From: a virus
IMG/VR virus record: IMGVR_UViG_3300006737_000258
Coordinates: 1-21,972 of that record
Strand: one strand, 5' to 3'
DNA length: 21,972 nucleotides
Numbering within the stretch: the first letter of the stretch is position 1; each line of letters opens with the position of its first letter. A model generated the notes under the pieces. That model saw only the letters and a program-made list of their open reading frames with translations, searched no databases and was not told the DNA's origin. The translations under genes were made by a program, and so were the position numbers. Of the stretch, positions 5,446 through 21,972 are shown piece by piece.

Positions 5446-5629
5446 ATTTAGTAAGGAAATACTGTATCATTTTAATTGTGGTAAATGTAATAAATGGTGG
5501 TCAATTGCTGACTACCATTTGTTTTCTAATAATGTACCAGAAAATGAAAAAAAGGTACCTATGTTAATAACATGTCCCCACTGTGGACATAATGAAGAAA
5601 TAAAAGAAGTGAAAAATGAGGAGAAGTGA
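5435..5629 (+). CDS. small zinc-ribbon protein
   Basis: This 64-residue protein has two Cys pairs, C15-x2-C18 (CGKC) and C47-x2-C50 (CPHC followed by GH), separated by 28 residues. That is the layout of a four-cysteine zinc ribbon. Aromatic residues WW (21-22) follow the first pair, and the C-terminus is charged. It starts 11 bases before the end of the reductase gene and its own end overlaps the next gene by 14 bases, so the three are probably translated together. A GAGGT about 8 bases upstream of the ATG is the best Shine-Dalgarno-like match in the window, but it also encodes part of the reductase. Function is unknown. Such ribbons often bind nucleic acid or a protein partner. A thioredoxin-like role through CPHC is less likely because the fold is far too small. 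Confidence 0.8.
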   Translation: MTHKFSKEILYHFNCGKCNKWWSIADYHLFSNNVPENEKKVPMLITCPHCGHNEEIKEVKNEEK

Positions 5630-5834
5630 TGATTGGATTAGTGAACTACACTATAAAGAATTTATTAAACCTAAATTACAACCCCAAGACTTTTATTGGG
5701 ATAAGGGTAATATGGTAATGACAGAAGAGTATCATAAAAAAAGAGGAACTTGTTGCGGTAGTGGGTGTAGACACTGTCCTTTTTCACCACCACACATTAA
5801 AATGAATAGAATACTTAGAGACGATATTATATAA
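5616..5834 (+). CDS. small DUF5522-like Cys-motif protein
   Basis: This 72-residue protein has a central block with MTEEYHKKRG followed by TCCGSGCRHCPF (C46, C47, C51, C54, plus H40 and H53). The combination of a YHxxRG segment with CCGxGCRHCP matches the signature I know from DUF5522, a family of very small proteins of unknown function common in Bacteroidota chromosomes. The Cys set probably binds a metal or iron-sulfur cluster. The N-terminal part (residues 1-30) and the basic C-terminal extension (61-72) go beyond the motif core. It overlaps the zinc-ribbon gene by 14 bases and is the last gene of the reductase cluster. Its role in a phage is unknown. The family name is from memory of the motif, so a profile search is needed to fix it. 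Confidence 0.78.
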   Translation: MRRSDDWISELHYKEFIKPKLQPQDFYWDKGNMVMTEEYHKKRGTCCGSGCRHCPFSPPHIKMNRILRDDII

Positions 5835-5860
5835 CAAGTCTTTACAAATTGAATAGAATG

Positions 5861-5874
5861 ATATTTATAATAAA
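5861..5874 (+). promoter_or_regulatory. putative phage promoter motif before the gp25-like gene
   Basis: ATATTTATAATAAA lies in the 49-base gap between the reductase cluster and the baseplate genes. It contains a perfect TATAAT at 5866-5871. A TTTACA lies 19 bases upstream of that (5841-5846), a loose sigma70-like -35. Its 5' flank resembles the flank of the motif before the first giant gene (CAAAT, then TTGA, then an A-rich stretch). If the TATAAT works as a -10 box, the transcript would start within about 10 bases of the ATG at 5884. Confidence 0.5.
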
Positions 5875-5883
5875 GAATTATAT

Positions 5884-6264
5884 ATGGCAGTTAAAACTAT
5901 TAATATTGACTTTCCTTTTCAAAAATCACCAATTGGTAATTTTTTGAGACTTAATCGTACTTCACAACGTGCGATAAAGTCAGATTTAATACATTTACTC
6001 TTAACAAAAAAAGGGGATAGACTTTATAATAACGAATTCGGATCAGGACTCTATAATTTTCTTTTTGAACAAATAGATGAAAAAACAACCTCCGATATTA
6101 AATTAGAGTTAAACACTTCCATAGGTAGGTATATACCAAATTTAACTATAAATGAATTAATAATAACTGCAAATGATGACGCTAATCATATTAAAGTAAA
6201 TATAGATTACACCGTTGTAGAAGCTTCTTTTGAGCAAAGTGATAGTATCGAAATTATATTATAA
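5884..6264 (+). CDS. 25: baseplate wedge protein, T4 gp25-like
   Basis: This 126-residue protein is near the length of T4 gp25 (132). It contains the family core: TKKGDRLYN (41-49, the T-x-x-GER position), EFGSGL (51-56) and NFLFEQID (58-65). A C-terminal beta-strand region typical of the GPW/gp25 lysozyme-like family follows. In contractile tails and related injection systems this protein sits in the inner baseplate, where it nucleates sheath assembly and binds the gp6-type wedge protein. That protein is encoded immediately downstream here, as in T4. The ATG has no Shine-Dalgarno. The stop codon is followed by AA and then the ATG of the next gene. No key residue appears to be missing. Confidence 0.95.
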   Translation: MAVKTINIDFPFQKSPIGNFLRLNRTSQRAIKSDLIHLLLTKKGDRLYNNEFGSGLYNFLFEQIDEKTTSDIKLELNTSIGRYIPNLTINELIITANDDANHIKVNIDYTVVEASFEQSDSIEIIL

Positions 6265-6266
6265 AA

Positions 6267-8084
6267 ATGTCAAAAAATAATAGTATTAATTATAATGCCC
6301 GTACATTCGTTGAAATACGAACAGAATTAATAAATTTTGTTAAACAATATTATCCAGATTTATTTAGTGATTTTAATGATGCTTCTGTAGGACAAATGTT
6401 GTTAGAATTAAATGCTGCAGTTGCGGATATGTTATCATTTAATACCGATAGAACTTTCCAAGAGACACAAATAGAGTATGCTCAGGAAAGGTCATCAATA
6501 TTATCTATGGGTAGAACATTAGGGTTAAAAATACCTGGTGTAAGACCAAGTATGTGTCTAGTCGATTTTAGAGTTACCGTCCCTCCACAAGGAGATTCTT
6601 TTAATAATGGTTATGCGCCAACATTAAGGTATGGATCGGAAGTTGAAGGAGGAGGACAAATATTTCAAGTAGAACAAGATATTGATTTTTCTTCTCCACT
6701 TTCTGCAGGAGGGGTACCAAATAGATTAGTAATACCAAATAAAGATAGTAACGATCTTATAATTTCATACGATTTAGTAAAACGAGAGGCTGTAGTTAAT
6801 GGTAAAACCAAAATACTAAAACGTAATATTAGACCACAAGACTTAAACCCTTTTATGGAGATAATTCTACCGGAGACTAATGTTATAAGTGTAGAACAGG
6901 TAAAAATGGTGATAGGTATAAACGGAGCAGAACCAACACTAAATGAATTTCTTGAGTTTGAAAATCGTTTTTACGAGGTAGATTCGTTGGCAGAATCCCA
7001 AGTCTTTATTGAAGATAAAGTTAGAAGTTCCGATAACTCGTCAATTAAACCAGGAAAATGGGTAGAGGTTACAAAAAGATTTGTTGCAGACTATACCGAC
7101 AGAGGTTTTTGTAGATTAACTTTTGGTAGTGGTACCGCTAACGCAGAACCAATTAACGATTATATTAGTAACGCTTTCTCAAGGTCACAAGTCCAAACTC
7201 TAATTAATAATACAAGTTTAGGTGAATTACCGACAGCTAATTCAACACTCTATGTTAGATATACAGTGGGAGGGGGACAACAATCTAATATAGGTCCTAA
7301 TGTCTTACAAAATAAAGGATTGATTAATATGTTAGTGACTGGTACTGATGCCACTAATAATGCTTTAGTTGAAACTTCTTTAAGAATAAATAATGTAACT
7401 CCAGCTATTGGGGGGACCGACGCCCCTTCTGTAGAAGAATTAAGAAATTTAATTAAATATAATTTTGCATCACAAAATAGAGCAGTAACAGTAAGAGATT
7501 ATTTAGCTTTAATTAAAAAAATGAGTAGTAAATTTGGAGTTCCTTTCAAAACAAATGTGGGTGAAAGACAAAATAAAATTGAAATATCTACATTAAGTCT
7601 AGGACCAAATAGAAAATTAACCACAACGTCTACTCAGACCTTACGAGAAAATATGTCTAGGTATTTAGCAAATTATAGGATGATTAATGATTATGTGACT
7701 ATCACTAATGGGGTTATAATTAATTTAGCTGTTGAGGTAATGTGTTATATTAATAAAGATTATAATAAATCATTGGTAATAACTGAAATAATAACAAAAG
7801 TTAGGGAATATTTTGATGTTACCTCCCAAACCATGGGACAAAATATATATTTATCAGATTTATCTAAGGAATTAAATTTAATTGATGGGGTATTAAACAT
7901 CATTGAAATGAAAATTTATAATCGTGTGGGTGGACAATATGGATTAGGTCAAGTAACACAACCATATGTAGACGATGAGACTTATGAAATTGACACAAGT
8001 GGGAACCTTACACTTTTCGGAAACTTCAATACAATGTTTGAAATAAAATACCCAAACACCGACATCCAAGTAATAGTTAATTAA
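6267..8084 (+). CDS. 6: baseplate wedge protein, T4 gp6-like (baseplate J family)
   Basis: This 605-residue protein is similar in size to T4 gp6 (660). The N-terminal block (residues about 10-60) has the strong gp6 signature: FVEIRTELINFVKQYYP, then NDASVGQMLLELNAAVADML. A middle beta-rich part has a LTFGSGTA turn and a VRYTVGGG strand. The C-terminal third has VRDYLALIKKMSS, a common feature of baseplate J proteins. gp6 forms the ring that joins neighbouring baseplate wedges and changes shape when the tail contracts. Gene order 25-6 is the T4 order. The start is separated from the upstream stop by two bases (TAA-AA-ATG), which suggests translational coupling. Confidence 0.93.
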   Translation: MSKNNSINYNARTFVEIRTELINFVKQYYPDLFSDFNDASVGQMLLELNAAVADMLSFNTDRTFQETQIEYAQERSSILSMGRTLGLKIPGVRPSMCLVDFRVTVPPQGDSFNNGYAPTLRYGSEVEGGGQIFQVEQDIDFSSPLSAGGVPNRLVIPNKDSNDLIISYDLVKREAVVNGKTKILKRNIRPQDLNPFMEIILPETNVISVEQVKMVIGINGAEPTLNEFLEFENRFYEVDSLAESQVFIEDKVRSSDNSSIKPGKWVEVTKRFVADYTDRGFCRLTFGSGTANAEPINDYISNAFSRSQVQTLINNTSLGELPTANSTLYVRYTVGGGQQSNIGPNVLQNKGLINMLVTGTDATNNALVETSLRINNVTPAIGGTDAPSVEELRNLIKYNFASQNRAVTVRDYLALIKKMSSKFGVPFKTNVGERQNKIEISTLSLGPNRKLTTTSTQTLRENMSRYLANYRMINDYVTITNGVIINLAVEVMCYINKDYNKSLVITEIITKVREYFDVTSQTMGQNIYLSDLSKELNLIDGVLNIIEMKIYNRVGGQYGLGQVTQPYVDDETYEIDTSGNLTLFGNFNTMFEIKYPNTDIQVIVN

Positions 8085-8118
8085 ACTCGTTTACTTTTCA
8101 CAAATAATTGATAAAATA

Positions 8119-8134
8119 ATATTTATTTATAAAT
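8119..8134 (+). promoter_or_regulatory. putative phage promoter motif before the first giant structural gene
   Basis: ATATTTATTTATAAAT occupies the 56-base gap between the gp6-like gene and the 1474-residue gene, ending 6 bases before the ATG at 8141. It shares ATATTTAT plus a nearby ATAAA with the other two gaps. Its 5' flank (CAAATAATTGATAAAATA) resembles that of the motif at 5861. Bases 8125-8134 form a perfect 10-base palindrome, which could be a protein-binding site or chance in AT-rich DNA. Confidence 0.48.
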
Positions 8135-8140
8135 GAATCA

Positions 8141-11100
8141 ATGGGAGAAAATCGAGTAATACGTATAACACCAAAACCAGGGGAACAAAAAGTCAATCTA
8201 AACCTAGAACAAGATTTTGATTTTTTAGAAATTTTGAGCCTAAAAATAACTCAAGCAGAAACATATAGAATATTCTGTTCTAATTATGGTGTTGTTGTAG
8301 GTAAGGTAACTTCTAACGGTGGATTTCCCATAAAAAACGCAAAATTATCGATTTTTATTCCCATAGATAATGAAGACGCAAAAAACTCTTTAGTCACATC
8401 TTTATATCCTTTTAGTTCTCCTCATGATATGTTAGTATCTGGTAAAAGGTATAATTTATTACCACGAGATAAACAAATTAATACTCCTGGTGACCATACA
8501 CCTGTTGGTACATTTCCCTCAAAATATGATATAATGTCAAATAAGACATTAAAGTATATACACGAAAAATATTACAAATATACAACAACAACTAATGAAA
8601 ATGGTGATTATATGTTTTTTGGAATTCCAGGAGGTACTCATATTATTCATATGGATGTTGATTTAAGTGATATTGGTAGTAATTCTGTAATCCCACAAGA
8701 CTTAATAAACATGGGTTACTCAGAAACGCTATTTGAGGGTCCAGACAAGTTTAGAGATTCTAATGATTTAGATCAATTAGCACAAATAGTTGGTATAAAT
8801 AAAACAGTCTTTATAAGACCTTTTTGGGGAGACGCTGATGAATGTGAGTTTGGTATCACTAGACTCGATTTTGATACCGCTCGTTTTGTTTCACCTAAAG
8901 CTTTTTTAATAGGTAGTTTTTTTACTGATGGTGACACTGACACAGTAGACGCCGCATTTATTCCTAGATCCTGTCAAGGTAATGATATCTATAATAATTT
9001 TCCTGGTGGTAATAAAGCTGGTGTTTCTAGAATGGTTAGTGCAAAAGATTTACGTACACCTGGAGAAGTGGCAAATTCAGGAGCAAAAGTTGGTGGTAGG
9101 GGAGTAATTGAGGCAGTTAGAATTACAGAATTTAATGAAAACGTTGAATACGTAGGAAAATGGTTTAGTAGACCAGACGGAACTTTCCAAGTGGCACTAC
9201 CCCTGAATAAAGGTAAAAAAAGTTGGGATGAGAATGAACAAGCATTCGTAGATGACGAAGATGGGTTTCCAACCTATGCTGACTACCGTTTTATGTTTTA
9301 TTTTGAAGGACAAGGGCCAGATGATTTTGAGGATGACTCAATACTAGGAATACAAAGTGAATTGGTTGCTTCGGCTCATGGGTATGAAGGAAATGGAACA
9401 AATTTTGCATGGGGTGACCCAGGAGCCATATGGTCGCCATTAAATGGTGCTTATACTGATGATTATTTTGTTGACAAATACACTTATAAAGGTAAAAAAG
9501 AAGCAAAAGAAAATAGAGGAGTTATTTTTGCACCTAATCCTGTAATACCAGGAGATAATATAGATAATGAAGTTGAAAATAATAGGTATACATTTTGGGC
9601 AGCGCCAGAATTAGAATGGAATACAGATATACCCGCTTTTAATATGGATGACCAATTTGGTAATAACGCCACTTATTATCGAAATTATTCTAGGATTAGA
9701 CTAAGTGGATATTATACCACTTCACAAATTTTTAACTTAATTGGGGATTATGATATTGCAGTAAGTGGTAAACAACCAGAAGGTTTTGATGGTGCTGGTG
9801 TTAATGGAGAATGGTGGAATGGAGATGGAGACTTAACTTATCCAGATAATACTTCACCTCCAGATTGGTTTGGTAAGAGTATTGGTACAAACCCATGGAT
9901 AATTTCTAGAGCAAAAATAGCACCAACAAATACAGAAAGAAGACAATTCCCAGCAAATTATATATTTGATAGATACTATAGAAAAGACCCAAGACAAAGA
10001 GGAAGATTTACTGATGGTTCCGAAGAAGTGGTAGGTAATGTATTAAGTAAAGGAGGATTTGTATCAAATTATTATATGGTTCATACGGGTGTTTTGGCCG
10101 AATGGAACGCTACAATACCAATGCCACTTCAAGATGAATTTGGGGGTTGTGCAGATGCGGTTAATGGATATGACCCATCCACTGGTTACGATTGGAATGT
10201 TATAGCTAATGTAACAAAAACTGGTCTAAGAGATACACCAGTACCACAATCGGCATCAAATAGTTATGTTGGTGACAACTGTGAATGTAGTGGTTTCCCT
10301 AATGGAACTAATGGTAATTGTCATCATATGAAAATATGCGGCACAAGACCTTATTACTACAATGGACAAGGTGATGGTCTTTCAACCAATTCAGGGGAGA
10401 ATACAATTGGTTGTAATTACATGCAACTGGGTAGTGCTGGTACAGGAAGTTATACTCCATATACAGGTTGTGAATTTGGAGTGTATGGACAATCTTGGGG
10501 AGATACAGCTTGTTGGGGATATAATCATTTTAATAGAGTAGGAACAGAATTTGGAGGTACTGCTAGACCATTAGACGGTTGTAAAGGATGTATTAATTTC
10601 TCAGGTATGCAAACAGATCTTTCAGGATATGTCGGAAGAAATAGGGCAGCTAATATTTTTAATCAAAACGCAACTCCATACGGATTTTCCCAAGATTGGA
10701 GTATTATAAATGGTGGGTCACTACCAGAAAATAATTATGGGTATGGTCTTGGAAATATCCAAGTACCAGATACAGCCAACCAAGGAGCAAACAGAACTAC
10801 AATAGCGGCTGGAAACAACTGTATATTAGGTAACTCTATGAAAGGAGGATTTATAGCACCAACTTGGGGAAATTATAAATTTAAGGCAAGATTAAATTAT
10901 ATTGGCGCTGCTGGTGTGTGGTGGGTTGGGGCAGGAATACACTACTGTGATACTACACAAGATGATTGTGACAGTGATGCTAATTGGAAATATTCGGCAG
11001 CAACAACGAATTTTGGATATACCCCGAGAGCTCGAGAATCTGCAGGTCAGGTCGCTTGGGCGGGTAAAGGAGGAGATGTAGGGGCTTACGATTTTACCTA

Positions 11101-12565
11101 CTCAACTAATTTCTGTCCGGATGAGTTTACAACCGCTGAAGAAATCGAAAGTCATTGTTTACAGCTTGATAAAAATGCTCTTTTATGGGGAAATGGTCCA
11201 ATAATGGGTATCGCACAACATGATTGGGATAGTGGTGGAGGTTGGCTTTCTTGGAATTTAGAACTTAAAGAAGGGATGGCGGTTAGGTTAGGTATGGTAC
11301 CAGCTAATGACTGTACTTCTGGTACGTTTCCAACAAATACTTGTACAACTACTCCTTGTGGTAATACAGGTGATATTGGTATTTGTGCTTATTGTCACGA
11401 AACGGATACTTATGCAAATGACTGGGGTGGAGAAAGAATAGCCCAATTTTTTATTTATAGTTTCACACCTAGACCAATTAAAGTAATCGATAATAGTAGA
11501 GAACTAGGTACACATGGAGGAGAAGGATTACACGGAGGATTATACTTTCCACAATTCTTTATTGGTCGTGACGAAAGTGATTGTTGTAGTAGGTCTAATA
11601 AGGATTGGGAGGCATATGCGATAACTTCTCAATCAGAGGTACATAAAGCAAGACTCTGGGAAAGATACTCTTTAATATTTGCGGGGCAATACCAAGAAGC
11701 AGATGGAGAAGTAAAGTTCCAAACATATACAGCGGGATATGGTGACCCAAAAGGTGGTACAATAATAAATAATGGACGTTATTATAATACTAGAACAATT
11801 GGAGGAACGTCAATTGTTGATATAACCAAAAATTATCCAGAGTTTAGAGGAGGACCAAACCAATGGGCAACAATAGATATGAATCTTCCCAACTCTTCTG
11901 TTAATACAGATGCTAACTTTTCGTATGAATATACACTAGCTAAATTTGACTATGGAAGGGCATCATTCCAAAATCCGTCAGCCATAGATGATGGAACAGG
12001 AGGTTTAGAATTTTTACAAAACAAATATTTTGCATTATATGATAATTTAGAGTTCAGAACAAACCAACAATATCCTAGAGAAACATTAGGTAATGATTAT
12101 AATGGGTTTTTTCCAAATACAAGTAATTATATCAATAGTTGGGACTGGACTTCTTCAAACTGGACTTGGTATGGATGGAGTTACCCAATGACTGCTCAAT
12201 TATTGACTACTTCGGTACCTGGAAATCCAGTAGAGTCTAGATATCATATTTATAGAAGAGATAACGGTCCAAATAATTACGCTTATCCTAGGTGGTTAGC
12301 TTGGGAAAGAGGAGTACCAATTAAATGGTATAATGATAATACTTTTTGGTGGAGAGATGTTATTCCAGAATCACATCCCGATCCGGCATCACCCGGAAAC
12401 AGTACAAACCCATGGCTTACTACACCTTATAACCCCGATATGTCCACAAGTGACAATACAGTCTTAAATGCTTACCCAATAAGAAAGTATTACTTTTTTG
12501 GAATGGATAAATCTCAACCTACAGCGTTAGATAGATTAAAATTAACAATACCAACAATTGAGTAA
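8141..12565 (+). CDS. giant baseplate/tail structural protein with carboxypeptidase-regulatory-like N-terminal domain
   Basis: I do not recognise this 1474-residue protein as a whole. Residues about 49-77 (YGVVVGKVTSNGGFPIKNAK) and 152-172 (NENGDYMFFGIPGGTH) have the hallmarks of a transthyretin-like, carboxypeptidase-regulatory domain: a V.G.V opening, a 'NGDY.F.GIP.G.H' closing strand, and an unusually long insert between them. The rest is rich in Gly, Asn, Tyr, Trp and Thr, with no coiled coil, signal peptide or membrane segment. Cysteines cluster at about residues 669-822 and 944-1151. The gene follows gp25 and gp6, where T4 has gp7, so a wedge or peripheral baseplate role is likely by position only. 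The ATG at 8133 is out of frame and stops after eight codons, so 8141 is preferred. The next gene follows after two bases. Confidence 0.83.
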   Translation: MGENRVIRITPKPGEQKVNLNLEQDFDFLEILSLKITQAETYRIFCSNYGVVVGKVTSNGGFPIKNAKLSIFIPIDNEDAKNSLVTSLYPFSSPHDMLVSGKRYNLLPRDKQINTPGDHTPVGTFPSKYDIMSNKTLKYIHEKYYKYTTTTNENGDYMFFGIPGGTHIIHMDVDLSDIGSNSVIPQDLINMGYSETLFEGPDKFRDSNDLDQLAQIVGINKTVFIRPFWGDADECEFGITRLDFDTARFVSPKAFLIGSFFTDGDTDTVDAAFIPRSCQGNDIYNNFPGGNKAGVSRMVSAKDLRTPGEVANSGAKVGGRGVIEAVRITEFNENVEYVGKWFSRPDGTFQVALPLNKGKKSWDENEQAFVDDEDGFPTYADYRFMFYFEGQGPDDFEDDSILGIQSELVASAHGYEGNGTNFAWGDPGAIWSPLNGAYTDDYFVDKYTYKGKKEAKENRGVIFAPNPVIPGDNIDNEVENNRYTFWAAPELEWNTDIPAFNMDDQFGNNATYYRNYSRIRLSGYYTTSQIFNLIGDYDIAVSGKQPEGFDGAGVNGEWWNGDGDLTYPDNTSPPDWFGKSIGTNPWIISRAKIAPTNTERRQFPANYIFDRYYRKDPRQRGRFTDGSEEVVGNVLSKGGFVSNYYMVHTGVLAEWNATIPMPLQDEFGGCADAVNGYDPSTGYDWNVIANVTKTGLRDTPVPQSASNSYVGDNCECSGFPNGTNGNCHHMKICGTRPYYYNGQGDGLSTNSGENTIGCNYMQLGSAGTGSYTPYTGCEFGVYGQSWGDTACWGYNHFNRVGTEFGGTARPLDGCKGCINFSGMQTDLSGYVGRNRAANIFNQNATPYGFSQDWSIINGGSLPENNYGYGLGNIQVPDTANQGANRTTIAAGNNCILGNSMKGGFIAPTWGNYKFKARLNYIGAAGVWWVGAGIHYCDTTQDDCDSDANWKYSAATTNFGYTPRARESAGQVAWAGKGGDVGAYDFTYSTNFCPDEFTTAEEIESHCLQLDKNALLWGNGPIMGIAQHDWDSGGGWLSWNLELKEGMAVRLGMVPANDCTSGTFPTNTCTTTPCGNTGDIGICAYCHETDTYANDWGGERIAQFFIYSFTPRPIKVIDNSRELGTHGGEGLHGGLYFPQFFIGRDESDCCSRSNKDWEAYAITSQSEVHKARLWERYSLIFAGQYQEADGEVKFQTYTAGYGDPKGGTIINNGRYYNTRTIGGTSIVDITKNYPEFRGGPNQWATIDMNLPNSSVNTDANFSYEYTLAKFDYGRASFQNPSAIDDGTGGLEFLQNKYFALYDNLEFRTNQQYPRETLGNDYNGFFPNTSNYINSWDWTSSNWTWYGWSYPMTAQLLTTSVPGNPVESRYHIYRRDNGPNNYAYPRWLAWERGVPIKWYNDNTFWWRDVIPESHPDPASPGNSTNPWLTTPYNPDMSTSDNTVLNAYPIRKYYFFGMDKSQPTALDRLKLTIPTIE
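10144..10605 (+). other. first Cys-rich segment of the 1474-residue protein
   Basis: About 154 residues contain 10 cysteines, including C-E-C, N-C-H-H, G-C-N-Y and G-C-K-G-C groups. The mix of CxC, C-HH and CxxC resembles metal sites more than a known repeat. Phage structural proteins fold in the reducing cytoplasm, so metal binding or late disulfide formation are both open. No family is recognised. Confidence 0.5.
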
Positions 12566-12567
12566 AA

Positions 12568-15500
12568 ATGGGAATGGATAGGAAAAAAATAATAAGAACA
12601 GAAGATCGTAAAGCTGACGCTATAGGAATAGGATATAATGTTAATGTTACCACTAATAACAGTAATAAACCTTTACCTACTGGTGAAGTTATAAAAGTAG
12701 TTGGTGCGGAAGAACAATTTCAAAAAGAAAGAAAAGAATCTACCAATTATAGATTAACAGCAACGATAAATACCACTATGTATTATCCACAGGATTATCA
12801 TTGGATAGGAACATGGAATAGTTCATATGAATTACAAGAAGATGTTGATGAAACCTTTGAAACAGATATCTTCAAAGACTGGAACTACCTTTTACCTAAT
12901 ATTCTTAGTCCAGACTCAATTAATCCTACAGAAGAAGATTTTAGAATTGATAAAATAATTAATTGGGTAGGACATGTTGTTTATCCATATGAAAATGACT
13001 ATCTTAAATTATATGAATTACCCTCATTTAGTGTTAATGTTGATTTCTTACCAAGTAATGAAGACGGAGTTTTAAGTATAGACACTGGTATAACTAATAT
13101 ACTATATAATGACATTCTTATTTATTTAGATGAATATGTAACAATATGGCCTGGTGTTAATGTGGGTAACACACCAATAGAAAACTATTTTGACCCATCT
13201 AAACCAGTAATCGCTCCTTTAATGACAGATGCGTCAACAACACTAAAGATTTCAAATAAAGAAATTAAGGGATATACCCAAGACGGAGTGCCATTTTTAT
13301 TTACAGTACCAGTACCAACAGAAAATGGTTGGAAAACAGCATTATATGTTCCATTCAAACATAATTTTGAGGAAGGGGATTATATATTTATAAAACCTAT
13401 AGCTTCTGATGAAGTTGGAGACGAATATAGTAATTGTGACCCTACACTTTATGGTTTCAAAAGAGTATTGGAAACTTCCTGGCGTGCTTTAAGTGAAGCC
13501 ACTTCCCTTAATTATATAATAATTGACCATAAAACAGAATATCATTGGGATTGGACAACTCTAGTACAAGGGGAAAATACAGAGGGAGAAGATTATCCTT
13601 GGACAGTAACTTCTTCACAAGGATTTATTAAAAGAGTCATCAATTATTCAGACTCTAGCACATTACCAATTACTATTGAAGACTTAAATAACGGACATTT
13701 TTCCCCATCCGTAAATGACCCACTAAATGCAATAACGGTAACTCTATTAGTACCACATAACTTAAAGGTAAATGATTTTACTTTAATTACTCTTTCAGAA
13801 GATGCTTTAGGAACAGACTTTAATAATGATAAAAAACCAACCCTTTTTAATTTAAGTGGGATATACACAGTAATAGATGTGTTAGACAACTATTCATTTG
13901 ATATAAGGGCCAAGTCACAACAAGACTTAATTGCTTTTTTTAATGGAGCTTATACCGATTCACAATTAGTAGCAAGTCCAACCAATTATTATATAGAATG
14001 TTATAAGTTATTAAGTGTTCCCTCTGAATATTATTTACGAAAAGGTAAAATTATTAATTCTATAAATAATTTTGATGTGAGCGACTTACCGATGAGTAAT
14101 AGTATTTTTATGGATAAAAATTATAATGCTGTTATAGACGAAGATATAAACACAAAAGGTTTAGTAGATAATTGGGGATTACCAATTACACAGTTATATG
14201 TTTTATTAACAAAAAGAGCGGGTCAACTACCTTACGACTTTACGGATGTTGAGACTTTTTTTAGTTGGAAATTTAATTATAGAGTTTTATTGTCTAAAAC
14301 AGGTGATGGTTTAGATGTAGTTTCTAGAAGAAGTAATACTGATAACAGAGGAGGGTATGTAAAAGATTCGGGTGGTGGATACATGGATGAATTTGATGAA
14401 TATTTAGGTGACTGGTACTATATAGATTTTAGTGAATTTAATAATAATCTTTTATTAGAAAAACAAGTAACCACATTATCAAATCGATTTAATGGGGCGC
14501 AACGTGAATGTGGTGGATTGGGAGATTGTAACTATGAGGTATATGCTAATGATTTTGATGGAATTATGTATAACGCTTGGTCAATCTATACAAGTTATAA
14601 TACTAGTAATTTAACGGTTTCACAAGTTGCAGGTAAGGCAAAATTAGTTTCAACCACTTCTTGGGTTTCACCTAATGCTCAAGCTAACTACGGAGGTAAT
14701 TACATTAGAACAACATTTATGGTTACTCCGGATCTAGTAGGTGAAACACTGGTCTTAAAAGTTAATTATGAACAAGAATCATCAACAGGAATGATAAGAA
14801 TATTTAACCCAGGAGGTAATCAAATGATATTAGGTAATGGGTCTTATGGAAAACCGGTTGGTAACGCGGCTAATTTAACCGTACCTTCAACAAACTCTGC
14901 TAATGATTATACAGTTTCTTTTATACCTACAGTAGTTGGAAATCATACAATTGCTTTAGGTTTAATGAATTATGTGGGCGGTTTAGTTGGTTACGGTGAC
15001 TTTATTGGGTATTATGATAATTTAGAAATAATAAAATATTATGGTACTCCACAATATGCTGGTTGGGTTTACGATCCTCTAACAGAATATCAATTACAAG
15101 TGTGGTCTAGTTATATAGAAACGGCAGACCCTAATGTATTGGGGATACCTTATTGGGCTAAATACATTGATGGGTTGTATTTTTGGAGAGATTTATTAAG
15201 TGTTGGTTATTTTGAGGATGTTGACCAAACAATTGGAGTGGATTACCCATTTTTGAATGGAAGTCATTATATAAATAAAGATAAAAATTTAATGGTTTCT
15301 TTAAGCCCTTATAAGTTAAACGAGTCTGGTACATCACAAATTATATTCGGATGTATGGATATTAACGCAACAAATTACAATACTGTGGCAACTTATGCTT
15401 GTGGAAATATTGTGGACCAAGGGGGACCTTGTGTTGTAGATGCTTTAGGAATTTTACAAACTGATACACCAGGAGTAGGGAATTATAACGCAAATGGGTG

Positions 15501-17754
15501 TTGTTGTCAATATGATGGAGGTAACGCTGTTGTTAATGTTTTAACTGAAGGGGATAAATTTGTGGCACGTACAAAAAAAATACAGAATAGTTATAATAAT
15601 GTTTCAGGGCCAACTCCAGCATATGATGTTGGTGACCAAATGATAGGGTGGAATATTTGTAGAGGTATTTATCCTTTTTGGAAAGACGCAACCTATTGGG
15701 GTACTGGTTTTGCCGATTATATTCCTTCAGAAACTTATCCTACCGTTAAATTACCTACATTAACAAAACTTGCGGGAGTTATGGTAGGGGAGGACAATCC
15801 AGCATTTAATGTATCTATAATTAATGGTAGTGCTACCTATGATGTATTTAGATATGAGAATTACACAGCCGACCCAAACTTTAGTTATCTCTATGGAGAT
15901 TTAGGAGATGGGACAGGATCACCACTATTTACTGCAGAAACAGGGAGATACCAAGAGTTATTTGATTTAGGTCAAGGAAGTTATGGGTTAGCAGACGTAC
16001 CACCCTCAGGAAATTGGACAACACAATACGATAATGGATTATCCACTTGGAATACTACCATAACTGATACAAATGGAGACTCTATTTCACCAGAATACTT
16101 TTCTCATAATTTATTTGAATTTTATAAGTTCGATACCAGTCAGTGTAAAACATGTTTTAATCAAGGATCAACACTTTCTACAGGTGACTATTTGGCACCT
16201 AGACATGGATGGCCAGTTGATGTAAACTCAGACAATATCCCAACAGCAACCGATATAAACGGAAACGGAATACCACATTTTCAAACATTACCCTTACCAG
16301 GTAATCAAATTGCGAGATCAACAGGAACTGGTAGTGATTTAGAAGGTTACGCCGGGATAGTTTCAAATACAGTAGTTGGTTCTGAAACAGTAAATATTGC
16401 GGCACATAGAATACCTTCCGATCCTAATAACTGGAGAATGTTTTATGGTACATGTGTATCTACTTGGGCGTGTATGGTGGATGCAGAAAAAGGAATATGG
16501 CCTACAGGTAGTTCCTATCCGACTTGTGCAGACCCTTCTTGTACAAATGAGGCAGATTGTATAAGTCCATTGGGCTGTAATTCAACATGGGGACCATTAC
16601 CAACACAAACTTGGACAACTGACGAATTAATTAATAATTGTAAAGGTGGTACAAATTGTCAAAGACAATGTAGTTGTGTAAATCCGGCGGGTGGTTCACT
16701 TTTTGAAAATTATTATGGTACTTCTTCTTCGGCTATAGGAGGACCGATATTGCCTTTAGAACAACCTACACAATTTTTTCCTAACGTACCCCCTAATATG
16801 GTTAATAATTATGAATTTAGAGGAAGAGTTAATATTGAAATGGGTATTAATTACGATGGTTATGAAAAATATTATAATGCTGGTTCTTTAGACCAGGGAT
16901 GGGCAGTTGCGGGACCAAATACTGGGGGCCCACCCATCACATATAATAACCCTTGGATGGATTTAGGTTTTTCTTGTGCAGACCCCACATGTTTAACAGA
17001 GGCAGACTGTGTAGGGACTGGTGCTGGACAATGTAGTTCTACATGGTCAGCAACCTTACCAAGTACAACAACTTCAAGTATTTCACAAACTTTAGCAGCT
17101 TCTATGGCTGTTACAGATGGATATAAAAAATACACAAGACTTTACTCCGGATTTTGGATTGGTATTGTTTCTGAAAAATGTGGTGTGGCGGGTCCTGGAA
17201 GTGGAACTGAAAAATGTACCTATATTTATGACCCAGATGATGGTACTGAAGGCGGTGGTGCGGGAGCCCCAATATACCAATCAGATGGATGGGGAGGTGC
17301 ATTTACAAATGTTAAATGGAATCACGGATGTGGTGGATGGAAAATGGATGGAATTACTGAAGCAGTTAATAAAATGGCATATTCACCTTGTAGAGACAAT
17401 AGTAATGGTTACGCTGATTGTAATGTTGGAGACCCAACAGCAACAAATTATGATGTTATCAATTACCAAAGTCCTACATATCTACCTAGTTGTGGTGAAA
17501 ATGGATCAACATCTTCCAAATCAGATTTCCAAAAAATATGGTCACAAAGTTTTAAGTCAGAATCCATTCCAATGCATGAAGGAGATAAGGCATTTATATT
17601 TATTCGTTCTGTAGGTGGGGCACTTAGACCGAATAACAGCGCAGTCGATGCTTATGGTTCACAAAATGTAACAATAAACGGTTCATCAGTTCAGGTAGAA
17701 ACTTACCTACCTACTTATTGGGGAGCGAGACTAATTAATAGTGAAGTAGCTTAA
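12568..17754 (+). CDS. giant multidomain structural protein with carbohydrate-binding-like domain and Cys repeats
   Basis: This 1728-residue protein is not recognised as a whole. From the N-terminus, two similar beta units begin at residues about 264 (KHNFEEGDYIFI) and 396 (PHNLKVNDFTLI), each ending in a 'G..V' strand. Next comes GLVDNWGLPITQLYVLLTKR (531-550), a form I associate with large phage tail proteins. A jelly-roll-like region at about 655-823 ends in YYDNLEI, the usual last strand of CBM4/9-type domains. A GC-x-D-x-x-A-x-NYN unit lies at 928-982, and two CADP-x-C-x-x-EADC repeats lie near 1320 and 1470. A second NYD-type unit is near 1618. It is probably a tail or baseplate-rim protein that contacts the cell surface, inferred from domains and position. 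It begins two bases after the previous stop. Alternative-frame ORFs near its 3' end are shadows. Confidence 0.83.
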   Translation: MGMDRKKIIRTEDRKADAIGIGYNVNVTTNNSNKPLPTGEVIKVVGAEEQFQKERKESTNYRLTATINTTMYYPQDYHWIGTWNSSYELQEDVDETFETDIFKDWNYLLPNILSPDSINPTEEDFRIDKIINWVGHVVYPYENDYLKLYELPSFSVNVDFLPSNEDGVLSIDTGITNILYNDILIYLDEYVTIWPGVNVGNTPIENYFDPSKPVIAPLMTDASTTLKISNKEIKGYTQDGVPFLFTVPVPTENGWKTALYVPFKHNFEEGDYIFIKPIASDEVGDEYSNCDPTLYGFKRVLETSWRALSEATSLNYIIIDHKTEYHWDWTTLVQGENTEGEDYPWTVTSSQGFIKRVINYSDSSTLPITIEDLNNGHFSPSVNDPLNAITVTLLVPHNLKVNDFTLITLSEDALGTDFNNDKKPTLFNLSGIYTVIDVLDNYSFDIRAKSQQDLIAFFNGAYTDSQLVASPTNYYIECYKLLSVPSEYYLRKGKIINSINNFDVSDLPMSNSIFMDKNYNAVIDEDINTKGLVDNWGLPITQLYVLLTKRAGQLPYDFTDVETFFSWKFNYRVLLSKTGDGLDVVSRRSNTDNRGGYVKDSGGGYMDEFDEYLGDWYYIDFSEFNNNLLLEKQVTTLSNRFNGAQRECGGLGDCNYEVYANDFDGIMYNAWSIYTSYNTSNLTVSQVAGKAKLVSTTSWVSPNAQANYGGNYIRTTFMVTPDLVGETLVLKVNYEQESSTGMIRIFNPGGNQMILGNGSYGKPVGNAANLTVPSTNSANDYTVSFIPTVVGNHTIALGLMNYVGGLVGYGDFIGYYDNLEIIKYYGTPQYAGWVYDPLTEYQLQVWSSYIETADPNVLGIPYWAKYIDGLYFWRDLLSVGYFEDVDQTIGVDYPFLNGSHYINKDKNLMVSLSPYKLNESGTSQIIFGCMDINATNYNTVATYACGNIVDQGGPCVVDALGILQTDTPGVGNYNANGCCCQYDGGNAVVNVLTEGDKFVARTKKIQNSYNNVSGPTPAYDVGDQMIGWNICRGIYPFWKDATYWGTGFADYIPSETYPTVKLPTLTKLAGVMVGEDNPAFNVSIINGSATYDVFRYENYTADPNFSYLYGDLGDGTGSPLFTAETGRYQELFDLGQGSYGLADVPPSGNWTTQYDNGLSTWNTTITDTNGDSISPEYFSHNLFEFYKFDTSQCKTCFNQGSTLSTGDYLAPRHGWPVDVNSDNIPTATDINGNGIPHFQTLPLPGNQIARSTGTGSDLEGYAGIVSNTVVGSETVNIAAHRIPSDPNNWRMFYGTCVSTWACMVDAEKGIWPTGSSYPTCADPSCTNEADCISPLGCNSTWGPLPTQTWTTDELINNCKGGTNCQRQCSCVNPAGGSLFENYYGTSSSAIGGPILPLEQPTQFFPNVPPNMVNNYEFRGRVNIEMGINYDGYEKYYNAGSLDQGWAVAGPNTGGPPITYNNPWMDLGFSCADPTCLTEADCVGTGAGQCSSTWSATLPSTTTSSISQTLAASMAVTDGYKKYTRLYSGFWIGIVSEKCGVAGPGSGTEKCTYIYDPDDGTEGGGAGAPIYQSDGWGGAFTNVKWNHGCGGWKMDGITEAVNKMAYSPCRDNSNGYADCNVGDPTATNYDVINYQSPTYLPSCGENGSTSSKSDFQKIWSQSFKSESIPMHEGDKAFIFIRSVGGALRPNNSAVDAYGSQNVTINGSSVQVETYLPTYWGARLINSEVA
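15349..15513 (+). repeat. GC-x-D-x-x-A-x-NYN Cys unit (copy 1, insertion-bearing)
   Basis: Residues 928-938 read GCMDINATNYN, then A-T about three residues later, ending in CCCQY at 978-982. This matches the short Cys unit GC-x-D-P-x-A-x-NYN-x-x-A-T-x-D-D-G-S-C frequent in secreted proteins of marine Bacteroidota, but with roughly 30 extra residues before the closing Cys-rich end. Confidence 0.65.
16525..16590 (+). repeat. CADP-x-C-x-x-EADC Cys repeat, copy 1
   Basis: Residues 1320-1341 of the 1728-residue protein read CADPSCTNEADC, a 5-residue spacer, then C-N-S-T-W. The second copy lies 150 residues downstream in the same protein with the same order of Cys, acidic residues and closing S-T-W. 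Confidence 0.75.
16975..17046 (+). repeat. CADP-x-C-x-x-EADC Cys repeat, copy 2
   Basis: Residues 1470-1493 read CADPTCLTEADC, a 7-residue spacer, then C-S-S-T-W. It matches copy 1 at every Cys and at CADP, EAD and STW. The DNA copies also share wording (TGTGCAGACCC at each start), consistent with a fairly recent duplication or exchange. Confidence 0.75.
17419..17493 (+). repeat. degenerate NYN-type Cys unit (copy 2)
   Basis: Residues 1618-1642 read C-N-V-GDPTATNYD, then about 13 residues to a closing S-C. The D-P-T-A-T-N-Y core and final S-C match the GC-x-D-P-x-A-x-NYN unit, but the first Cys is displaced by three residues. Confidence 0.55.
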
Positions 17755-17755
17755 T

Positions 17756-18607
17756 ATGGAAGAAAATAACAAATATTATTTCACACCTTCTCCAACACAA
17801 AGAGAGATTATAGTCCCAATTACAGAAGACATCTTTCCGGTTGATAATACAGAATTGGTGGATAAAAGAGCCGACCAAAAAGCACAATTAGCAATAAATA
17901 ATATAGATGATTGGGAAAAATCAAGATATAAATTAGCTTGTAACTCTACACAACAAAATGAAAATAGTTGTTTTGATATCTATTTACATTTTTTTAAGTT
18001 TTCACCACCAGCAGGACAAACAATAAATTGGGTTGATGCAGAAATGTTTACTGAACAAGATATATATCTAAAAACAAACAGATTTGTTGGTAGTTTTATA
18101 AGAATATCATACTATACTACACCACATAGAGAAACACAAAAACTAATAGGGTATAGTAGTTTACAACTAGAGGAAACACCAATATCAAAAATATCCATTT
18201 GTCCAAATCAACCAGGTAGTTTTTTATATCATTGGAAATCAAAGAAAAAATTAAATATTACAAATAATAAATTATATATGAAAGTTGAATTTTTTAATTC
18301 GGCTAATGGTAAAGTTTATGTTTTGGGTAGTGCATTACCTGTATGGTCATATGCCCCAGAATATTATATCGATTTTTGGAATGAAGAAATGGATTACACA
18401 GTAATTTCCTTAAATGACAATACAAGAACTTTTACACCACAACCTCAAACTTGGGATTTTGAGGCAATGGATTGGTACATGGAGTTTTTGGCTGGAAATA
18501 ATCCAGTCGCAGAAAACTTTGTAAAGATTAGAAATTACGATGTGGGATGTGAGATGGATTTGTATTATAAAGAATTAATAACATGTCCAGCTCCGTTCTG
18601 TACTTAA
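17756..18607 (+). CDS. hypothetical structural protein (283 residues)
   Basis: I do not recognise this protein. The ATG is one base after the previous stop (TAA-T-ATG), with no Shine-Dalgarno. The first 60 residues are polar and charged. The middle (about 72-210) alternates hydrophobic and polar residues in strands (FDIYLHFFKFS, FVGSFIRISYY, NKLYMKVEFFNS, GKVYVLGSALPVW), which suggests a beta-sandwich or jelly roll. The last part is rich in Trp, Tyr and acidic residues (DFEAMDWYMEFLAG) and ends with two cysteines in CPAPFC. There is no signal peptide or membrane segment. Lying between two giant tail genes, it is most simply a baseplate or tail component, perhaps an adaptor between larger proteins, but this rests on position only. 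Confidence 0.78.
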   Translation: MEENNKYYFTPSPTQREIIVPITEDIFPVDNTELVDKRADQKAQLAINNIDDWEKSRYKLACNSTQQNENSCFDIYLHFFKFSPPAGQTINWVDAEMFTEQDIYLKTNRFVGSFIRISYYTTPHRETQKLIGYSSLQLEETPISKISICPNQPGSFLYHWKSKKKLNITNNKLYMKVEFFNSANGKVYVLGSALPVWSYAPEYYIDFWNEEMDYTVISLNDNTRTFTPQPQTWDFEAMDWYMEFLAGNNPVAENFVKIRNYDVGCEMDLYYKELITCPAPFCT

Positions 18608-18620
18608 AAATAAAATAATT

Positions 18621-18881
18621 ATGGTAAACACAGGAACAACAAAAAATTATCAAGTACCACCTTTCCCAAGGTTACAAGCGGCGAGAGTTTTAGAAATAGA
18701 ACCACAACCTCAAGACGCTAAAATACCCGCTGATTATTTTAGTGAGGGTGTAAGAATGAGTATAGAAAGAACAAGAAGGATAAGACCTAAATATTTAGGT
18801 AAAAATGAATTTGTAAAACAATATACAGGTGGTGTTATAAACGAATTACCAGATACACCAATAATTAGTGGAAGAACATAA
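18621..18881 (+). CDS. hypothetical small protein (86 residues)
   Basis: This small protein is not recognised. It starts 13 bases after the previous stop at an ATG with an A-rich leader, and its stop is two bases before the next ATG. It has a Pro-rich N-terminal half (VPPFPRLQ, EIEPQPQDAKIP) and an Arg/Lys-rich middle (SIERTRRIRPKYLGK), followed by a short C-terminal tail. There is no Cys, membrane segment or signal peptide. Low complexity and small size suggest a largely extended protein. In this context it could be a linker or a chaperone for a neighbouring giant protein, or a minor baseplate part, but nothing in the sequence decides. Its spacing and coding bias match its neighbours, so it is probably real. 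Confidence 0.7.
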   Translation: MVNTGTTKNYQVPPFPRLQAARVLEIEPQPQDAKIPADYFSEGVRMSIERTRRIRPKYLGKNEFVKQYTGGVINELPDTPIISGRT

Positions 18882-18883
18882 AA

Positions 18884-21800
18884 ATGGAAAAGATAATTAG
18901 AAAAATATCAAGAGAAAATTTATTAGGTGATAAACTTAATTTAACACCTCCTGCGTTAAATCCTGAACCATTATTTCTTAATAATATTAATCCGTATCAG
19001 TGCACAGATCCAGATATGTCTTTTGAAGATTGTGAAACTACAATACTCGATCCACTCTTTATTATGGATGGTATCGATGGAATGATAGCCCAAGAGTATA
19101 CCAATTTTATTTCTAAAGTATTCATAGATAACTTCCAACTAGGGACTTTTAATTGGGAACATTTTAGTAGTGAGTTTACTACAGGGATGTATTGGGATAC
19201 TACACCACCTTGGGTAGAAAGTGCTGGTGACTATAGTATGAGAATACAACTTACAGACGCTTTCCAACCAACAGGATTTGTTTATGTGGGAACAAAAGGA
19301 AAAACAGTACTTGAGGCAGGTGCTAATTATAGAGTTTCTTTTACTCTTAGTACCGATGTACAATACATTAAAGACCAAATAACAGCAAGTATAAGTTCTA
19401 CTTCAGTAATGTTATGGATAGAGAATCCAGAGTCTAATCTATTCTCTCTCTTGACCTGGTCAACTTTAGAAACTCCAGTATTTCCAGAACGTGATATATT
19501 AACCACAACTTTTACAGCCCCTGATGGGGGTGCTTACGACTTTACCTTTTGGTTATACACAGGATGGTCAGTTTTAGGTTCTCAGGCACAAACTGGAGAT
19601 TTTTGGTTATTTGATGATATTACCATATCTCTAGAAGATACCCAGTCTACTGAAAATAGTTTTACTAGTGTAAAAAGAGATGTCTTCGGCTTTTTTAAGT
19701 CATTCAATATTGAAGCAACCGAATATAATTTAAGATTATATGAAAATAATATAAATAATTACCTTTTTATTGAACCTTTAGATGTTGATGAATTGGCTCT
19801 TGGTGCATACGGCAATCAACAAATAGATGAAGATACAGGATTACAAACAGGTGTCTATACTCTTTCATCTCCACCTGAAGGAGTGGTACCTTTTTACTAT
19901 CTAAGTTATAATTTATATGGTGCTTTGGTAACTAATGTACAGGGTACAACAACAACTAACGATGGGTTTTTATATTGCCAAGCTCCTGATTTAGGACCAT
20001 GGGATCCTAATGAAACATATTCACTAGGAGATGTAGTAGAGGATAGTGACGGTAAGATATGGTATTGTTCAGACATACCACAAAATAGTTGTGACCTTGA
20101 TCCTCTTGACCCATCTTGTAGTTTAGGACAATGTGGTTGGATATCATGTCTTAATATAGTTTCATATAAAACAAGAAATATAAACCTGACTTTTCCTTTA
20201 TACCAAGACATTAAAGATATGGGTATTTATACAGATTTAATTTATCCAGGAATTGCGGAAGAGTGTAGTGGGTCAACAGAAACTTTAACTAAAGATTATA
20301 AATGTCCAGTACCTTATTTTATTAGTGATGGAGGTGAAGTTATTTTTTATGACAATCAAACAACTAGTGAAGTAAGAGTAGAAAGAAAATGTTGTGAAGA
20401 TTATAGTGAATATGGGTTTGTGTGGTTTGAAGGTAAGTGCTATAAAGATTACGGATTACCAGGGGTCGGAGTAGGACTAGAACTATTCAATTTTACATAC
20501 CCAACTTTATTTATAGGAAGAGGTGATAACCAACAACTATTTGATGATGGACCCGTCCAAGTTATGGATGAAATCAGCTTAAATACTAGTAATTTAGGTA
20601 CTATACTTAATTACGTAGGGGGGAGAAACTTAATATACACTCCATTAGTTAGTGGACTAATCAATGGGGAAAAATATGTTATGAAGGCTAACCTAATAAT
20701 GGATTATTATGATAATTCTACTTTAGCTGTTATAAAGTTAAGTGCAACAGGACAACTAGACCCTAATTGGGGATATGTTTGGTATCAAAATTTTGATTTA
20801 GGTAGTTCAGATATTTTACCACCTGTTACAGAAGGTCCACCTTGTATTGGAGGTAATGTGACACAGACAGTGCAGTACCTTTCTGCAAACAATCCAAATG
20901 GAGTTTTATTTACAACCACAACCAACTGTAACTCCGCAAATATGTCTAAATATGTCCAATTAGACCAAGGAGTAGAATATAGAATTCGTTTTGGATATAT
21001 AGGATTAACTAACGGAAGTTCACCAGTCAGTGTCGCTAATCAATTAGGTAATAATGATATGTTTTTTGAAATAGAAGATATTGCTAATTCTACCTCTATG
21101 TTATTTGATACTTTTGGAGGTCCAGGATTTTATGATAAAGAGTATCTATTTACCCCAATAGCTAGTGGAACCTATGCACTACAAATCGGTGTAACCAACC
21201 CAATGCCACCAGGAAATGGTCCTTTCGGTGATTATGGTTTTGGTTTAGATTATTGGGCTTTAGACGAAAGACCATTTAGTTACACACAAGAAGAAAATGT
21301 AATTGTAGATGCGGTAAAAACATGGTCTAGTAATTCTGGAGACGTTGCAGACGGTACAACATCTATTCAGTTAGAAAGTATATTTACCCTAACCAACGCG
21401 TCTAATTTAAGTTTAAGATTAGTTTGTGATGTAAAAGAAGCTATAATAACAAATCCTTTATCTTTTGGTTTAACTATATCTGACATAAGTCTTAAAAAAT
21501 ATACAACACCTAATTTTTTAGGTTGTGAAAAAACTAACTTTCTTAATGAAGTTTCCAAAAACCTAGTTCTTACCGGTCAAACCATGTTTGACCCAGACGG
21601 TAATCCAAATACTCTTAATAGTTATTTGGCTGATATACAATTTGACCAAGGTCAAGAAATCATAACTACTTCAGTTCCGTATGTTACAACAGTTAGTAAT
21701 ACAGATACTAGAATTTTTCCAGCCGCTGGTGCAGAAACTAGTGCTTTATGTGAACCTTCACAACTTGTAGTAGGGTGGCATTGTGTTCCCGAATATCCTT

Positions 21801-21972
21801 ACCTAACTGGAGGAGTGGTACAAGTAGGTAATCCAGTAGCGGCTTGTGTGGCTTCAACGGTTATAATACCAGGTGTTACAATGTATGCTTCGGCACAACA
21901 ATGTCTAAATAATAGTACTTGTAATTGGACCGCAGGGTGTACAGACTCAATAGCATATAATTATAATGAAGA
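18884..21972 (+). CDS. giant tail/adhesin-like protein with carbohydrate-binding-like domains (3' end outside window)
   Basis: An uninterrupted frame runs from ATG 18884 to the right edge, giving at least 1029 residues with no stop. It is not recognised as a whole. Residues about 80-250 form a jelly-roll-like region with WVESAGDYSMRI, YRVSFTLS and a closing FWLFDDITISL, the layout of CBM4/9-type galactose-binding folds. Residues 371-419 (PWDPNETYSLGDVV, then IWYC, ending C-G-W) resemble the small chitin-binding CBM5/12 fold. Two further beta regions (about 560-640 and 660-800) contain 'Y.M.A.L' and 'Y.IRFGYIGL' strands. The last residues carry a Cys unit, CNW-x3-GCTDSIAYNYN. A host-binding fibre or baseplate-rim protein is the likely role, inferred from domains and position. 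The start follows the 86-residue gene by two bases (TAA-AA-ATG). Confidence 0.84.
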   Translation, partial: MEKIIRKISRENLLGDKLNLTPPALNPEPLFLNNINPYQCTDPDMSFEDCETTILDPLFIMDGIDGMIAQEYTNFISKVFIDNFQLGTFNWEHFSSEFTTGMYWDTTPPWVESAGDYSMRIQLTDAFQPTGFVYVGTKGKTVLEAGANYRVSFTLSTDVQYIKDQITASISSTSVMLWIENPESNLFSLLTWSTLETPVFPERDILTTTFTAPDGGAYDFTFWLYTGWSVLGSQAQTGDFWLFDDITISLEDTQSTENSFTSVKRDVFGFFKSFNIEATEYNLRLYENNINNYLFIEPLDVDELALGAYGNQQIDEDTGLQTGVYTLSSPPEGVVPFYYLSYNLYGALVTNVQGTTTTNDGFLYCQAPDLGPWDPNETYSLGDVVEDSDGKIWYCSDIPQNSCDLDPLDPSCSLGQCGWISCLNIVSYKTRNINLTFPLYQDIKDMGIYTDLIYPGIAEECSGSTETLTKDYKCPVPYFISDGGEVIFYDNQTTSEVRVERKCCEDYSEYGFVWFEGKCYKDYGLPGVGVGLELFNFTYPTLFIGRGDNQQLFDDGPVQVMDEISLNTSNLGTILNYVGGRNLIYTPLVSGLINGEKYVMKANLIMDYYDNSTLAVIKLSATGQLDPNWGYVWYQNFDLGSSDILPPVTEGPPCIGGNVTQTVQYLSANNPNGVLFTTTTNCNSANMSKYVQLDQGVEYRIRFGYIGLTNGSSPVSVANQLGNNDMFFEIEDIANSTSMLFDTFGGPGFYDKEYLFTPIASGTYALQIGVTNPMPPGNGPFGDYGFGLDYWALDERPFSYTQEENVIVDAVKTWSSNSGDVADGTTSIQLESIFTLTNASNLSLRLVCDVKEAIITNPLSFGLTISDISLKKYTTPNFLGCEKTNFLNEVSKNLVLTGQTMFDPDGNPNTLNSYLADIQFDQGQEIITTSVPYVTTVSNTDTRIFPAAGAETSALCEPSQLVVGWHCVPEYPYLTGGVVQVGNPVAACVASTVIIPGVTMYASAQQCLNNSTCNWTAGCTDSIAYNYNE
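19994..20149 (+). other. possible CBM5/12-like (chitin-binding) domain
   Basis: Residues 371-422 of the last gene have W-x5-Y-x2-GD-V-V (W373, Y379, GDVV), then an aromatic IWYC strand and a final CGW about 35 residues on. CBM5/12 modules have the order W...Y..GD.V...G..Y.C....P...W. This copy has four extra cysteines (CDLDPLDPSC and CGWISC) in the last loop, so it may be a variant or only similar by chance. Confidence 0.45.
21902..21972 (+). repeat. GC-x-D-x-x-A-x-NYN Cys unit at the right edge (partial)
   Basis: The final codons read C-L-N-N-S-T-C-N-W-T-A, then GCTDSIAYNYNE. This is the same unit as in the 1728-residue protein and closer to the canonical form (GCTD, A, NYN). Its closing D-G-S-C half would lie beyond the window. 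Confidence 0.7.

Follow-up and report, generated by a model that had tools for sequence, protein, structure and literature searches.

A two-cysteine module at domain junctions of phage tail-region proteins, with a structural precedent in perforin-2

A small cysteine module of about 24 residues was found at domain junctions of phage tail-region proteins, with homologues in cyanophages, bacteria and archaea and a counterpart in vertebrate MPEG1/perforin-2. It is best read as a long-resident phage spacer or hinge module, rather than as a recent capture or mimic of a host protein, and we hold with moderate confidence that it acts as a cysteine-closed bead serving as joint, spacer or hinge between phage tail domains. 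The window, meaning the whole stretch of DNA analysed here, comprises 21,972 bases of a marine phage (virus record IMGVR_UViG_3300006737_000258, positions 1 to 21,972). Its right edge was read past using the 79,143-base IMG/VR contig 3300006735_000023, on which all sequence beyond 21972 rests, and which shows 7 differences from the window in the 17,405 positions from 4568 to 21972. The first 535 positions of the window (1-535, a UvsX-like gene) show 61 differences from L011 of the longer contig, and this divergence beside the near-identity from 4568 on may reflect mosaicism.

The window encodes a B12-dependent ribonucleotide reductase and holds a series of very large tail-region proteins that are rich in cysteine and lack annotation. 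The features considered here were the following:

5884-6264, + strand: gp25-like baseplate wedge gene (PHROG 261, E 5e-24)
6267-8084, + strand: gp6-like baseplate wedge gene (PHROG 219, E 5.9e-21)
12568-17754, + strand: open reading frame of a 1728-aa tail/baseplate protein carrying unit 1, with 33 cysteines (1.9%)
12568-15312, + strand: its conserved core, about aa 1-915
14530-15042, + strand: probable jelly-roll (CBM4/CBM22-like) domain inserted in the core, from a structure model and Foldseek
15349-15513, + strand: unit 1, a six-cysteine long form, aa 928-982, from a profile match and orthologue conservation
15565-17751, + strand: lineage-specific C-terminal extension, about aa 1000-1728, restricted to the four long orthologues
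16522-16590, + strand: 4-Cys insertion copy A, CADPSCTNEADC...CNSTW, a gap in all three orthologues
16972-17046, + strand: 4-Cys insertion copy B, CADPTCLTEADC...CSSTW, a clean insertion relative to the three orthologues
17419-17493, + strand: claimed unit 2, rejected; no unit in the orthologues
18884-21972, + strand: open reading frame of a second large protein of the tail region, running past the window edge and 1258 aa on the longer contig
21935-21972, + strand: unit 3, cut by the edge; a long form, GCTDSIAYNYNEDANTPC...GDCCIYP, on the longer contig

The unit-carrying genes adjoin the gp25 and gp6 homologues just upstream, a neighbourhood that supports the claim of the initial annotation that the units lie in phage tail proteins and that corresponds to a myovirus baseplate/tail region. 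Homologues of gp25 or gp6 were also found on the strand of the unit gene in at least 14 further, pattern-matched viral loci. The gp6-like protein was 25-27% identical to those of Flavobacterium phage immuto and Microcystis phage Mel-JY01, which were about equally close. The two wedge genes are of the T4 type. The unit-bearing proteins matched no PHROG family, and searches of the carriers against Pfam, PHROGs and NCBIfam returned nothing usable. Cysteine content was 1.9-5.7% in the unit-bearing proteins of both records and about 0.4-1.0% in gp6, UvsX and the other downstream tail proteins examined. A further large protein (1426 aa; L011:2259-6539) contained five tandem (D/E)(Q/E)FDSTGG-like repeats.

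Three copies of a Bacteroidota-type cysteine unit had been claimed in the window, and these were investigated using a profile built from units of bacterial and archaeal genome contigs only, mostly Bacteroidota. Run against the phage proteome, this profile did find similarity. Unit 1 matched at E 2.8e-5 (18.0 bits) and is kept in the four known orthologues, and unit 3 reached 14.2 bits from its 12 in-window residues and opens a run of units on the longer contig, so both are real. The second claimed copy is not a unit: it scored 5.8 bits (i-E 0.18) and, since the orthologues read ADCNIGNINSYEYD or PGCNITDQDSPNYD at its place, the GDPTATNYD at 17419 is a local coincidence next to a pair of conserved cysteines. 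For this one site, the explanation holds that phage proteins rich in cysteine and Asn/Tyr resemble the unit by chance. For units 1 and 3 that explanation is refuted, and overall we give it a negligible probability, since the unit is conserved in orthologues and the strict pattern GC.D..A.NYN, which occurs twice in the three large proteins, was absent from 20,000 shuffles (a looser unit pattern was seen twice against 0.02 expected by shuffling of the three proteins). Profile E-values also went down to 3.5e-56, a value reached by the host-trained profile on a 578-aa protein encoded by a later gene of the longer contig (L002:19084-20820), which carries a tandem array of seven copies and had been overlooked, as had an unrelated 4-Cys insertion.

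The 1728-aa protein has three other full-length orthologues in IMG/VR, at 45-51% identity, and none of full length in the phage collection. Unit 1 follows the pattern GC..D..A.NY...AT..C...QGGPC..D..G..Q...GCCC.Y, and all six of its cysteines are invariant in the four known orthologues. The more distant orthologues in L127, L044 and L104 are shorter (597-648 aa): they terminate right behind the conserved core, at the point corresponding to the start of unit 1. Unit 1 thus lies where this core meets an extension of about 750 residues that is specific to the lineage. Cysteine is the final residue in each of these three short orthologues (L127:9644-11488, L044:657-2447 and L104:2620-4563). An AlphaFold model of the core with unit 1 was poor (pLDDT 41) except in part of aa 650-825. 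The region 14530-15042 reached pLDDT 70-79 in parts and gave Foldseek matches to CBM4/CBM22 at E about 2e-4; it has no Pfam match and is an alignment gap in the short orthologues. This probable jelly-roll is a candidate glycan-binding domain. Within the extension, the 4-Cys insertions follow the pattern CADP[ST]C..E.DC.....C[NS]S.W, of which a third copy lies at L002:20287-20361. This mini-module is distinct from the GCTD unit, and among viral contigs its pattern was found on this contig only.

The second large protein carries four units at its C-terminus on the longer contig, as detected with the host-trained profile, the first being the one truncated at the right end of the window. The seven-unit array in the 578-aa protein was modelled with AlphaFold2 at a mean pLDDT of 80 and a pTM of 0.36, as expected for well-formed beads whose mutual orientation is uncertain. 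By eye, a possible third cysteine module, CC-x4/5-G[FY]xW-x4-C, was noted in about three copies in neighbouring genes, with sites at aa 503-519 of the 18884 reading frame and at L002:18105-19076.

The phage units align as GCT[D]xxAxN[YF]NxxAxxDDGSC, in which G, C, N, G and C are invariant, and the short two-cysteine form reads G-C-x-[DN]-x2-A-x-N-[YF]-x3-A-x2-D-D-G-S-C. A phage-built profile, which included the units and array of this contig together with cyanophage units, matched residues 331-353 of human MPEG1/perforin-2 in the PDB at E 1.4e-6, with the two cysteines in register. A Foldseek search of the array model gave one match of solved structure, MPEG1, aligned over 28 residues at 46% identity and an rmsd of 1.1, with an E of 2.7 that alone would not count. 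In BFVD, 13 viral models have E below 1e-3. The truncated EGF-like module of MPEG1 joins the MACPF and P2 domains and has been proposed as a hinge point (PMC6989145, PMC7593815, PMC9418332). The likeness to the phage units consists of the 23-residue pattern (PDB 6U2J, 6U23, 6SB3) and the position between two larger domains (PMC6989145, PMC7593815). Judged by sequence, the phage units are the same module as this truncated EGF-like domain, and MPEG1 is the single structural precedent for the unit. The settings differ, as MPEG1 is a secreted vertebrate pore former with a single copy, whereas the phage units are single or in tandem, include six-cysteine long forms and lie in carriers with no evident export signal.

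Pfam EGF families gave no match at E 1 for the array, the carriers or the unit consensus, and no Pfam or NCBIfam entry for the unit itself was found. An approximate unit consensus exceeded the gathering cut-off set for the Pfam model PsaN (PF05479). Kinship with photosystem I was rejected, and the match was read as a unit lying within some sequence behind that model. Searches of a literature library, by motif sequence among others, found no paper describing the unit. The structure of the module is already known from MPEG1, but the six-cysteine long form of phages and the use at tail-domain junctions look new.

Isolated Synechococcus myophages carry the unit in genes annotated as virion structural protein, mostly beside tail-fibre/tail-collar genes. 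Among Kyanoviridae, the carriers were S-H9-2, S-CAM3, S-CAM4 and S-RIM44, together with the hub protein of S-CAM1. As in the window, the unit sits at a domain junction, here in tail-region genes annotated as virion genes; unlike the window, the carrier proteins are unrelated to those described above, and only short units were seen. The parts after the unit align in every pair of cyanophage carriers (31-48% identity, E 2e-43 or better), and the parts before it sort into groups that resemble one another little or not at all. These alignments place the cyanophage unit between N-terminal domains that are exchangeable and a C-terminal part that is conserved. The carriers of S-CAM4 and S-RIM44 have two cysteines in all, both in the unit.

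Viral arrays reach 17 units among the matches listed and the cyanophage unit sits in or near the tail-fibre gene cluster, both of which would suit arrays that are themselves ligand-binding adhesins, for example glycan or peptide receptors on the tips of fibres. Among the viral matches listed, however, runs of a single unit at a junction are the commonest arrangement (292 of 507 runs), and by inspection the variable positions form no evident hypervariable face, so that we regard a receptor role as very unlikely and prefer a bead that joins or spaces domains.

The surveys of viral and genome contigs were DNA pattern scans; counts refer to the matches listed, and no prevalence follows from them. 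Genome matches listed were mostly from marine Flavobacteriales, and included Neomarinimicrobiota, marine archaea, Nanoarchaeota and candidate phyla. In the phylum of one unit-bearing Flavobacteriales genome, the unit was present at E 1e-6 in 9 of 99 sampled genomes (that genome included), two of which held 43 and 85 or more copies. The GCTDPxAxNYDPxAxxDDGSC repeats of Flavobacteriales and the phage units gave reciprocal profile matches, which upholds the claim that the units are shared with large secreted proteins of Bacteroidota. The label 'Bacteroidota-type' is therefore sound as a description of resemblance; as a name it is too narrow, given the cyanophages, archaea, Neomarinimicrobiota and vertebrate MPEG1. 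Flavobacteriales carriers differ from the phage proteins in having signal peptides and T9SS-like tails (seen in many of the host carriers inspected) and often a third cysteine at position 7. By inspection, the window reading frames start with MGMDRKKIIRTEDRK and MEKIIRKISRENLL, without a hydrophobic leader, and the T9SS sorting model did not match the phage carriers.

The initial annotation raised the capture of a host surface module, used for adhesion or mimicry, and several observations are in keeping with units taken recently from a Bacteroidota host. The unit is abundant in some marine Flavobacteriales, whose unit proteins have the export features just described, and the phage host is likely to be a member of Bacteroidota. 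The latter rests on a thioredoxin-like protein of the longer contig (L013:11521-12177), which combines a WCGPC motif and an N-terminal leader with a tail weakly resembling the T9SS sorting model (12.3 bits, cut-off 23). Its best relative among 61 genomes sits in the unit-richest genome and has a T9SS-like tail, and the phage protein is possibly a secreted redox enzyme made during infection. Canonical array units scored slightly higher with host-trained than with virus-trained profiles, although overall the phage units scored about equally with both, and such scores do not tell the direction of transfer.

Against this, unit 1 is conserved in four phages as divergent as the orthologues described above, the cyanophages have the unit as well, and the cysteine patterns of the two groups differ. 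Among the matches listed, 129 of 322 canonical host units have the third cysteine at position 7, which viral units seldom show (32 of 464; P 6e-30). In long units, defined as those without a cysteine at the usual closing position, a terminal CC accompanied an extra loop cysteine in 24 of 30 viral cases and occurred in 31 of 104 viral units without one (odds ratio 9.4, P 1.3e-6). Long units combining the loop cysteine with the CC were exclusively viral among the matches listed (24 of 622 against 0 of 381 in hosts, P 1.4e-5); these association tests count related units as independent, so that all their P-values are optimistic. A recent capture for adhesion or mimicry is thus unlikely. That the units are phage-borne and shared both ways, the other suggestion made at the outset, fits better than recent capture, with the profile scores giving no direction, and the module is best taken as long resident in phages.

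The cysteine counts also bear on how the unit is held together. Extra cysteines showed no excess of even numbers per cluster, with crude cluster borders, in hosts (96 even, 119 odd) or in viruses (98 even, 119 odd), which argues against simple full pairing. In host units the position-7 cysteine co-varies with a linker cysteine (P 3e-5); in viral units this was not significant (P 0.25), and no argument for phages follows from it. The missing even-number excess would agree with metal binding, in which either the DDGSC segment, rich in Asp/Asn, would hold Ca2+ or the cysteines themselves a metal, with no need for cytoplasmic oxidation. The invariant acidic and Asn positions and the synthesis of the carriers in the cytoplasm point the same way. 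However, the settings in which the unit is used are extracellular, a usual zinc site needs more than two lone cysteines, and calcium is not mentioned in the MPEG1 passages searched (PMC6989145), so that we consider metal binding an improbable account and return to a bead closed by its cysteines.

In the proposed mechanism, the unit would be a small two-cysteine extracellular module forming a covalently closed bead at junctions between baseplate/tail protein domains. Unit 1 would represent a single bead at a fusion point, and the arrays at the C-terminus of the 18884 protein and in the 578-aa protein would act as spacers. The point made at the outset, that cysteines of a protein assembled in the cytoplasm would not normally be oxidised, is a fair one. 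The carriers would be incorporated into virions; because they have no evident export signal, their cysteines would pair, and so lock the joint, only after the particle has left the reducing conditions of the cytoplasm. On this basis the unit is probably closed by disulfides after lysis, by oxidation outside the cell, and may then work as a spacer or hinge.

More tentatively, and as a possibility that we would not yet favour, a single disulfide-closed hinge may circulate among the tails of phages, animal perforin-2 and the proteins that marine bacteria and archaea secrete, serving phages as a standard joint for tail-domain swaps that is open in the cytoplasm and locked by post-lysis oxidation. 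If so, part of virion maturation would happen outside the cell. The finding raises the question of how virions assembled in the cytoplasm gain cysteine-stapled parts, and the link to a solved structure opens a first way into the structure of thousands of marine proteins that lack annotation. If the unit is indeed a standard joint, it would mark the sites of tail-domain exchange, with relevance to the ways in which marine phages alter their binding targets.
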